A stretch of 64,000 bases of DNA, from contig JAZKEU010000015.1 of the NCBI GenBank assembly GCA_040386775.1, forward strand, positions 1 to 64,000, in the 5' to 3' direction. The translations under genes and the position numbers were made by a program. The DNA is from Bdellovibrionota bacterium. GTDB lineage: Bacteria > Bdellovibrionota > Bdellovibrionia > Bdellovibrionales > JAEYZS01. This document shows positions 22,326 through 24,979 of this stretch, piece by piece; position 1 is the first letter of the stretch, and each line of letters begins with the position of its first letter. The notes under the pieces are model-generated. The model was not told the DNA's origin and ran no database searches. It worked only from the letters and a program-made list of their open reading frames with translations.

Positions 22326-23939
22326 TTATGTGTTTAATCTGTCGAGTAATGGTCCTGAGATGGCGATTACGCTGGATCTCGGGATTGTACCTTCGCCGTC
22401 TGGCCAGCTACTCGTGTAGCCATTTTCTTCTGACGAAGAATTTCCTGGATGCTGTACTGATAAAAATAATGTTTTAAAATCAGGGGAAAAGCAAGGACCT
22501 GCAAATTCAGCATCCACGGGACAAGATGCAACCTGGTAAACGACGCCTTTGTCTTCTCCTGATGTAGGGATATAAAAGAGTCCATTGTTACCAAAGCCTT
22601 TGTAAGGAAAATCTCCGATGAGCTTTTCACTTATGTCTGAAGTGACCCAGAGATTTCCTTTTTTATCTATAGCAAAATTATCAGGGCAAGACATTCCAGC
22701 ATCAGGCCCGCATTCGAGCCATTTGTAAGACTTGAATTTGAGAGATGCTGGATCTTGATTTTCTTCGTCTATGGCTAGAATATATCCGTGGGCATCAAGA
22801 CGTTTTTGATTGTTCGTGCAAGCAATAAGAACAGTGTTTGTTTCCGGCAAGATATCAATGTCTTCTGGGCGATTGAGTGGCGTGGCATCCAGCATTTTTG
22901 CAGCAGTACGAGTTTGTACCAAGAGATCTGTGAGATCTTTAAATTTACCTTTTAATTTAGGATTATCTAGCGTGAGAGGTCTCCACGTTCCCGTTTCCAT
23001 GTGTGCAACATAAAGAGTTCCTTTGTCCAAGCTTCCCTTTTCATCAGAAATAAATTTATAGAGATGTTCATCCTCAGCATCATCTCCGGTGTAGACAACA
23101 GTTCTGCCGTCCTTTGCAAGAATGGGTTTTGCGCATTCGTGAGCCATTCTTCCCATGGTTAAATGTTTTTTTGCTTTACCAGTCAAAGGATCAACTTCAA
23201 CTACCCAGCCATAATGTTCTGGATCGTAATCAAAGTGTTTGTCCCATCCGTATTTTGAGGTATCAAGTTTGAATCTTAAACCATTTTTATATTCGTACTC
23301 GCCATAATAATCGTCATAATTTTCTTCGCATGAAAGAATTGTATTCCAAGGAGTAACACCGCCAGAACAATTTGCAAGGGTGCCTATGGCAGATTTCTTA
23401 CCTTGGATTGTGGCATTCACAAAGGGAATCTCTGTTTGACCAGAAATTCTGCGGTTGTATTTCGAATCTTTGACGAGTTGCCATTGATTGTTGATTTTTT
23501 TGATATGGATTAAGCTTCCGCCAACATTTTTTTGCTCTTGGATAATTTGATCTTTTGTTTTCTTCGAAGATTTTCTTTCTTTATGAATCAAGTAAGGAGT
23601 TGGGAATTCGTTATTGACCCACATAATACCTTCGTCAGCTTTTTCTTCGAGGGGAATAAAAGCTATAAAATCATTATTCATTCCAAAGAATTCAGATTTG
23701 TTAATTGGATCTTTCCATGAAATCAACTTGTGATATTCCAGACCAGTGCTCAAGATAACTTTATCTTCCATTGAAGGTTCAATAGATGGAATATTAGGGT
23801 TTAAGTTTCTTTTGATTTTTGTCGTGGCGCAACCTGTGAGTAGGTTTGCTATTAATCCAGAAGAGGTGAGGGCGATTGCTGTTATACCTGTATTCTTTAG
23901 GAAGTCTCTTCTCGTTGGATGCATGATTTTTCTACTCAC
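22326..23939 (-). CDS. PhoX-like DUF839 protein with Tat signal and lipobox
   Basis: This 537-residue protein has a twin-arginine signal (TRRDFLKNTG, then a hydrophobic stretch) that ends in LLTGC, a lipobox. It may therefore be a folded, Tat-exported lipoprotein. The body matches DUF839/PhoX beta-propellers: NCSGGVTPWNTILSCEENYD, GWVVEVDPLTG, MGRMAHECA, VYTGDDAEDEHLYKF, and a late CFSPDFKTLFLSVQHPG. PhoX enzymes are Ca/Fe-dependent phosphatases, but many DUF839 members are not tested. The start overlaps the flavin reductase stop by 4 bases (ATGA type), so translation is probably coupled. Confidence 0.85.
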   Translation of the reverse strand: MSRKIMHPTRRDFLKNTGITAIALTSSGLIANLLTGCATTKIKRNLNPNIPSIEPSMEDKVILSTGLEYHKLISWKDPINKSEFFGMNNDFIAFIPLEEKADEGIMWVNNEFPTPYLIHKERKSSKKTKDQIIQEQKNVGGSLIHIKKINNQWQLVKDSKYNRRISGQTEIPFVNATIQGKKSAIGTLANCSGGVTPWNTILSCEENYDDYYGEYEYKNGLRFKLDTSKYGWDKHFDYDPEHYGWVVEVDPLTGKAKKHLTMGRMAHECAKPILAKDGRTVVYTGDDAEDEHLYKFISDEKGSLDKGTLYVAHMETGTWRPLTLDNPKLKGKFKDLTDLLVQTRTAAKMLDATPLNRPEDIDILPETNTVLIACTNNQKRLDAHGYILAIDEENQDPASLKFKSYKWLECGPDAGMSCPDNFAIDKKGNLWVTSDISEKLIGDFPYKGFGNNGLFYIPTSGEDKGVVYQVASCPVDAEFAGPCFSPDFKTLFLSVQHPGNSSSEENGYTSSWPDGEGTIPRSSVIAISGPLLDRLNT

Positions 23940-24649
23940 GTAAAGTATATCTCCTGGAATATTTGATCTTTAGGAACACCTTTCGAAGTTAAAATTTCTT
24001 TTACTTCCTTAATCATGTCATTCCCACCGCAAATATAATAATCGGCAAGTGTCCAATCATAATTTTGAGGAAGTTCCTTTAAGTAATGAGTAACACGGCC
24101 TTTAAATCCATTCCAGTTAGGGTTTGGTTGGGAAACCGTAGGTATGTATTCAAACTTGGAGTCTTTGCTGAAGTTGTGCTGATATAGAATTTCGTCGGAG
24201 GTGCGCACACCAAATAAGCAAACTCCCCGCGAAGGATGTTCTTTTTGAAATTTTTCAGATTCAATCATAGACACATACGGAGCAATGCCTGTCCCTGTAG
24301 AAATAAAAAATGGGAATCTAGGTTTAGCGGTTTTATAAACGAATTTCCCGTATGGTCCTGAGAGATCTACAAAATCGTTTACCTTCAGTGCTTTTAAAAA
24401 GTTTGTCCCTTTTCCTTCTTCCACATACTTCACACAAAGAGTTACGACTTTGTTTTCTGGAGGAGACAGAATCGAATAAGCTCTAGATAATAGTTTTTCG
24501 GGGTTTTCTGGGTCTTTGAATTTAACCATTATAAATTGACCAGCTTCAAAATTAAAAGTCTCGGTGTCCAATTGAAAATCAATTTCAAAAACTGTGGGGG
24601 TTATAAATTCGTTGCGGAGAACTTTGCCTTTAAACTTCAAGACTGCCAT
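23936..24649 (-). CDS. Ferredoxin-NADP reductase-like FAD/NAD-binding oxidoreductase
   Basis: This 237-residue protein has two domains. The first is an FAD-binding beta-barrel with RAYSILSPPE (the RxYS motif). The second is an NAD(P)-binding domain with ISTGTGIAPYVSMIES and a late YICGGNDMIKEVKEIL. It lacks an iron-sulfur domain, so electrons go to an outside partner such as ferredoxin, flavodoxin or an oxygenase. It is first in a unit with the PhoX-like and peptidase genes. It diverges from the structured-RNA locus. Confidence 0.88.
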   Translation of the reverse strand: MAVLKFKGKVLRNEFITPTVFEIDFQLDTETFNFEAGQFIMVKFKDPENPEKLLSRAYSILSPPENKVVTLCVKYVEEGKGTNFLKALKVNDFVDLSGPYGKFVYKTAKPRFPFFISTGTGIAPYVSMIESEKFQKEHPSRGVCLFGVRTSDEILYQHNFSKDSKFEYIPTVSQPNPNWNGFKGRVTHYLKELPQNYDWTLADYYICGGNDMIKEVKEILTSKGVPKDQIFQEIYFT

Positions 24650-24763
24650 AGCTGTAAATCCTTTTTAATCAGAAGTTTTATAATAGGTAGGACTATGCTT
24701 TTTGTCCATAAAGTGTTAGCATAATGACAAGGCGTTCGTACGCCCAGGAAGGAGGTGATGCCC

Positions 24764-24829
24764 ATGATCAGTCATAATGACATTACATGGGCAGTAAAGA
24801 CGATTTCATGTGAGGTGATTCTAGCTTAA
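24764..24829 (+). CDS. Possible 21-residue peptide inside the structured RNA
   Basis: ATG 24764 follows an exceptionally long Shine-Dalgarno match (AAGGAGGTGAT at 24749-24759, 4-base spacing). The frame reads MISHNDITWAVKTISCEVIL plus Ala, then TAA. The start codon lies inside the second stem and the stop in the loop of the third, so translation and folding would compete. The peptide has no amino-acid run typical of attenuator leaders. It may be a real small protein, a leader peptide, or merely incidental to a ribosome-binding RNA. Confidence 0.3.
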   Translation: MISHNDITWAVKTISCEVILA

Positions 24830-24870
24830 TTGCTAGATCATTTATCCTTGAGGTCAGATTTACTGCCTCT

Positions 24871-24903
24871 AAGGGCGGGGGAAACCCCGCCCTTAACTTT
24901 TTT
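24871..24903 (+). terminator. Strong intrinsic terminator
   Basis: A 10-base perfect stem (AAGGGCGGGG / CCCCGCCCTT) with a GAAA tetraloop is followed by AAC and six T residues. It ends the structured RNA about 77 bases before the oxygenase start. The first four bases of the stem (AAGG) are also part of the preceding hairpin, so the two structures partly exclude each other. Confidence 0.85.
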
Positions 24904-24979
24904 GCACTCCCTCCAACTTTTCCTATAGTTTTTGAATGTATATGGTATATAGCTCCCTTCATGAAATTTGAGGGCAGTA

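Follow-up and report, generated by a model that had tools for sequence, protein, structure and literature searches.

A small RNA gene with an extended Shine–Dalgarno sequence

The window (the whole 64-kb stretch of DNA that was analysed) carries at positions 24729–24903 of the plus strand a gene for a stand-alone, strongly folded small RNA with an 11-nt Shine–Dalgarno (SD) sequence, a 21-codon ORF and a terminator. Genes of a PhoX-like phosphatase and an FAD/NAD-binding reductase (22326–24649) are divergent from it; the reductase neighbour is also kept at L011. A promoter-like TTTGCA-17-TATAGT (24901–24929) follows right after the terminator, possibly serving the downstream gene for a 2OG-Fe(II) oxygenase. 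The elements of the locus are as follows:

24720..24725, + strand: CATAAT, a possible −10 box (from sequence)
24729..24903, + strand: whole small RNA, about 175 nt (fold z-score and family; 5′ end predicted from the HD100 homologue)
24731..24744, + strand: 5′ hairpin H1, GGCGT-TCGT-ACGCC (from folding)
24749..24759, + strand: 11-nt SD AAGGAGGTGAT (from the 16S 3′ end of a relative)
24760..24766, + strand: GCCC spacer and ATG, the 5′ arm of the start-codon hairpin (pairs with 24786–24792)
24764..24829, + strand: 21-codon ORF MISHNDITWAVKTISCEVILA, stop codon TAA (from family comparison)
24786..24798, + strand: segment X, where CATGGGC pairs with GCCCATG and GGCAGTAAA pairs with X′
24812..24815, + strand: second SD-like GAGG, 11 nt before the stop codon
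24859..24867, + strand: segment X′ TTTACTGCC, complementary to X (the equivalent Chloroflexota pairing covaries)
24871..24903, + strand: intrinsic terminator, stem 24871–24894 and T-run to 24903

The original prediction, a structured RNA at 24731–24903 with an 11-base match to the anti-SD sequence, was confirmed. The fold has a predicted energy of −78 kcal/mol vs −47 kcal/mol for shuffled sequences (z = −7.0), and none of 200 shuffles equals it. The SD AAGGAGGTGAT is the single occurrence of AAGGAGGTGRT in the window (0.06 expected). All of its bases can pair with the 16S rRNA 3′ end ...GGATCACCTCCTTTCT of G014, a genome of the same order; the suggested comparison of 16S ends succeeded with this relative, but the assembly that contains the window gave no match to the 13-base end. 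From the proposed row of five stem-loops, H1, the start-codon hairpin and the terminator are as described, but the middle stems are nested and do not form independent hairpins. The CATAAT put forward as a promoter box is present, but a consensus scan gave no sigma-70 promoter pair at this site. The 21-residue frame with its start codon in a stem and the second SD-like sequence GAGGTGAT (24812–24819) were both found. No match above the Rfam gathering score was obtained for the window RNA or its relatives; a known riboswitch was rejected on this ground, as anticipated.

Relatives in two phyla

A BLAST search with the window RNA reached two genomes of the same family and one more, and no further. 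A short pattern made of the SD and start region matched in 30 of the 141 genomes of the order, while a reversed control pattern matched in two. Nineteen loci of the order were judged true members by the presence of a 5′ hairpin, SD, short ORF and following terminator, and 18 of these were used to build model R1. The model detected diverged members in families f3, f4, f5, f6, f8 and f10; with a derived pattern, it linked the members in the window, f10, f4, f6 and Bdellovibrio.

Hosts found in a GTDB-wide scan belonged to Bdellovibrionales/Bdellovibrionia and, unexpectedly, also to Chloroflexota, including Anaerolineae. An exact 17-mer was present in 49 of 400 Chloroflexota genomes, one copy each (the reversed pattern in one genome), and 47 of the 49 matches were judged members by inspection. 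Among 369 Bdellovibrionota genomes there were 19 exact matches, all of them members and one (L143) outside the order. A model built from Chloroflexota members only, R2, detected the window RNA with E = 7e-5, with much of the score coming from the SD motif that was itself used to find members; several others had E-values below 1e-4. The final set of relatives with distinct ORFs includes 43 from Bdellovibrionota and 45 from Chloroflexota. Descent, transfer or convergence may each account for its presence in both phyla.

Further phyla are possible, since the form of X used in the whole-GTDB scan misses the common Chloroflexota type. The pattern occurred in 4 of 195 Myxococcota genomes (seed included), and these matches were, from the low rate, taken as probably due to chance. 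Only the seed matched among 150 Pseudomonadota genomes. A phage origin was rejected: the 70-nt core had no phage match, and two pattern matches in viral contigs had ORFs of 2–3 codons and lacked the family architecture.

Members share a 5′ part composed of a hairpin, a AAGGAGGTGRTGCC-like SD and an ORF of 12–24 codons in which an in-frame segment, X, is complementary to the SD/start region. The 3′ part has a GAGG near the stop codon (mainly in Bdellovibrionota), then, past the stop, a segment X′ with complementarity to X or to its surroundings and, usually, a terminator. The compensatory changes expected in relatives were observed.

The member expressed in Bdellovibrio bacteriovorus HD100

Genome G031 has a c-di-GMP-I riboswitch at 1,073,868–1,073,951 (−), inside the published merRNA coordinates, which supports its identity as B. 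bacteriovorus HD100. The family match in this genome (535,210–535,258, +) lies in APsRNA2 (535,188–535,321, +; 134 nt; L201). From its length the HD100 member had been suspected to be APsRNA5; the coordinates show APsRNA2.

In the original publication, on a single species (Karunker et al. 2013, PMC3627812), APsRNA2 is listed as a non-coding RNA, one of eight intergenic sRNAs of the attack phase. Its reported expression was 8,869 RPKM in attack phase vs 204 in growth phase, i.e. 43-fold up; attack-phase specificity is published for the HD100 member only. The available part of that paper gives no ORF, switch, relatives or function for APsRNA2. Elsewhere in the literature searched, the term APsRNA referred to plant microRNA only.

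We found in APsRNA2 (G031:C1:535188-535321) a 15-codon ORF, MVKNVDITKAEVTSS, behind an extended SD. Like the window RNA, APsRNA2 has the same kind of 5′ hairpin, SD, ORF, second SD and terminator; the window RNA is homologous to it in both sequence and architecture. Transcription of APsRNA2 was mapped to begin 22 nt before GGAGG. Applied to the window RNA, this spacing puts its predicted 5′ end at 24729, within two bases of the position 24731 originally proposed.

Two competing pairings of segment X

The SD half GGUGAUGCCC does not vary in the alignment of Chloroflexota members, and SD:X is paired in 99.7% of cells though X does vary. The X:X′ pairing is present in 95.6% of cells, with changes on both sides at 6 of 11 pairs. 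The covariation score of this structure exceeded those of 500 out of 500 shuffles (such controls leave sequence relatedness in place) and of every slid version. Both pairings need the same bases of X and are, therefore, mutually exclusive.

The duplex of SD and ORF was stronger than with shuffled ORFs (p < 0.05) in 43 of 45 Chloroflexota and 28 of 43 Bdellovibrionota members; pairing of the ORF tail with the post-stop segment was significant in 38 and 23, respectively. In Bdellovibrionota, the register of the pairings shifts from family to family. Changes in the spacer are matched by changes in X, e.g. GTGCTTAT with ATAAGCAC in L169 and TGCCCTTA with TAAGGGCA in L171. In Bdellovibrio proper, it is mainly the region of the second SD, GGCGGAGGU, that X′ (ACCUUCGCC) covers.

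Partition-function folding of RNAs ending at X gave SD:X contact of 0.89 for Chloroflexota and 0.72 for Bdellovibrionota; with X′ present, the values were 0.30 and 0.24. The SD was only partly free in full-length single-sequence folding (mean 0.39 and 0.32, respectively). In the window RNA, the start hairpin coexists in folding with part of X:X′, and the full X:X′ pairing costs 2 kcal/mol when forced; thus, the switch in this member may be a soft one.

The fit of X to its own SD and spacer bears on a rather unlikely alternative, that these RNAs are trans-acting base-pairing sRNAs whose SD-like stretches or X/X′ segments pair with target mRNAs, translation being incidental. A stand-alone transcript, regulated by attack phase in HD100, and the conserved loop bases of Chloroflexota members agree with such a role; the tailoring of X to the RNA's own SD and spacer argues against it, and so does the distance from AUG to X, by which the segment facing the SD keeps a constant frame in the members examined.

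Translation, peptide and second SD

The start codon is AUG in every listed member. Conservation of frame and start codon among relatives fits the suggestion that the RNA is linked to translation. A plain mRNA of a functional microprotein, with the structure only timing translation as in type I toxin mRNAs, is a possible but not favoured explanation. It would account for the conserved start, frame and ORF length, and the Helicobacter aapA3 mRNA is reported to have hairpins that sequester the SD, one of which lies in the ORF (PMC6733600). In the EV group of Bdellovibrionota, pairwise differences are biased to synonymous ones in the last codon (S; 59 vs 20 non-synonymous) and at codon −2 (36 vs 24), a pattern that hints at genuine translation and at some function of the C-terminus or its tRNA. 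The loop codons of Chloroflexota, however, show 55 synonymous vs 460 non-synonymous differences, the third positions being frozen while residues change; the loop part of this peptide is, therefore, not conserved. The family peptides (ORF list) are polar, variable and strongly different between families, and lack the hydrophobic character of toxic peptides. Glutamate near the stop is encoded by GAG in 61 of 67 tail cases, which fits an SD-like element better than a residue. In sum, the frame and the RNA pairings appear, from the comparison of sequences, to be conserved and the peptide mostly not.

Several features of individual ORFs were observed. In alignment A2 (columns 48–59), third codon positions of the loop codons are more conserved than the first and second ones, the opposite of ordinary coding selection. 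In L183 and L201–L208 of Bdellovibrionota, the last S and the preceding A are kept through synonymous changes (TCT/TCA/TCC and GCT/GCC); Chloroflexota ORFs often end in R, encoded by various codons. Three Chloroflexota members have lost the usual stop codon: in L070 and L083 the frame extends to a later stop at or near X′, and in L109 it reaches 43 codons.

GAGG occurs within 16 nt of the stop codon in 36 of 43 Bdellovibrionota members vs 11% of codon shuffles, and exactly 8 or 11 nt before the stop in 30 of 43 vs 4%. The second GAGG is weaker in Chloroflexota (24 of 45).

Occurrence of a GGAGG-like motif twice could also indicate an RNA of the CsrB/RsmZ type that titrates CsrA via GGA motifs, and CsrA was present in all nine Bdellovibrionota carriers tested, including the window genome. 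Its absence from all nine Chloroflexota carriers tested makes CsrA titration unlikely as a shared role, and each RNA has just one or two of these sites, associated with the start and stop codons. We rejected a CsrA sponge as the family-wide function and consider CsrA titration highly improbable as an explanation of the RNA.

Gene neighbourhood

A terminator-like hairpin follows the stop codon in 29 of 43 Bdellovibrionota and 32 of 45 Chloroflexota members vs 5–6% of shuffles. Downstream genes differ among members and are convergent at several loci, among them L012, L018, L019, L020, L029 and L030; gene contexts of Chloroflexota members are likewise varied. No conserved co-directional downstream gene was found among the Bdellovibrionota and Chloroflexota members compared. 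Family members were thus taken to be stand-alone transcripts, as their sequence contexts suggest.

Control of the downstream oxygenase gene, one of the roles initially proposed, did not hold up; the RNA may still have one of the other two, as a small RNA that binds ribosomes or as a regulator of translation. In favour of a transcription attenuator or leader, the oxygenase gene lies downstream here, and a similar protein is encoded downstream in L011, the closest relative, and only there. In other members, different and often convergent genes occupy this place, which argues that the RNA is not an oxygenase leader. Furthermore, X′ and the terminator of the window RNA do not overlap, and a promoter-like site follows the terminator. 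We regard the leader explanation as very doubtful.

A putative ribosome-gated switch

With about even confidence, we interpret the window RNA as a small RNA that belongs to the APsRNA2 family, stands alone, is translated and contains a bistable switch gated by ribosomes. Comparison supports the family itself, the HD100 transcript, the conserved frame, the two competing pairings and the autonomy of the gene; on the same comparative grounds, ribosome gating appears well supported.

The predicted sequence of events is as follows. The 11-nt SD, complementary to the 16S tail, would recruit 30S subunits. While transcription has proceeded only to X, this segment of the short ORF would pair with the 3′ half of the SD, the spacer and AUG, and the start site would be closed. 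The 5′ AAGGA, left free, may serve as a toehold from which a 30S subunit could invade. The 16S rRNA and X would compete for the same SD bases, a plausible reason for an SD spanning the 16S tail. Post-stop X′ would then compete for X and the start site would be reopened. The second GAGG near the stop codon, present in most Bdellovibrionota members, could anchor the terminating ribosome. What has been conserved seems to be the act of translating, more than the bulk of the peptide.

We infer that gating, ribosome invasion and ribosome retention would take place in cells, along with a role in trans, and that the cellular role may be the sensing or holding of ribosomes. Most likely, the RNA would report on or hold free ribosomes and act in trans, with relevance at growth stop, as in the attack phase of Bdellovibrio. 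More tentatively, the family may represent a widespread ribosome-sensing or -holding class: a mini-mRNA with a full-length SD at the start (in Bdellovibrionota, with an SD near the stop too) and its own fold competing with 16S rRNA, which would tune or store ribosomes at growth stop.

An attack-phase sRNA of one predator, so far unexplained, becomes a member of a family in two distant phyla, and this family looks like a self-contained translation switch without a gene to control. If the RNA indeed reads ribosome availability, it would constitute an RNA-only link between translation capacity and the non-growing state.

Comparison with known systems

Extended SD–aSD pairing and small ORFs are shared with the extended-SD mRNAs of Staphylococcus aureus (PMC13009471); those are, however, ordinary genes and uORFs, and the available part of that report does not describe an SD:X:X′ switch. 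Leader-peptide attenuators such as trpL of Sinorhizobium (PMC7298713) similarly combine a short ORF, competing pairings and then a terminator, and sequence comparison shows here, too, a short ORF coupled to pairings that exclude one another, most strongly in Chloroflexota. Unlike these attenuators, the APsRNA2-family RNA stands alone, in varied contexts and without a consistent regulated gene. The aapA3-type type I toxin mRNAs of Helicobacter pylori (PMC6733600) encode toxic peptides and have an antisense antitoxin, whereas the peptides of our family are polar and variable and a consensus scan gave no minus-strand promoter inside the window RNA. The likeness to these mRNAs lies in sequestering of the SD by hairpins, one of them in the ORF, which are proposed to be transient during transcription; in the family described here, prediction and comparison point to an SD sequestered by a start-region hairpin.
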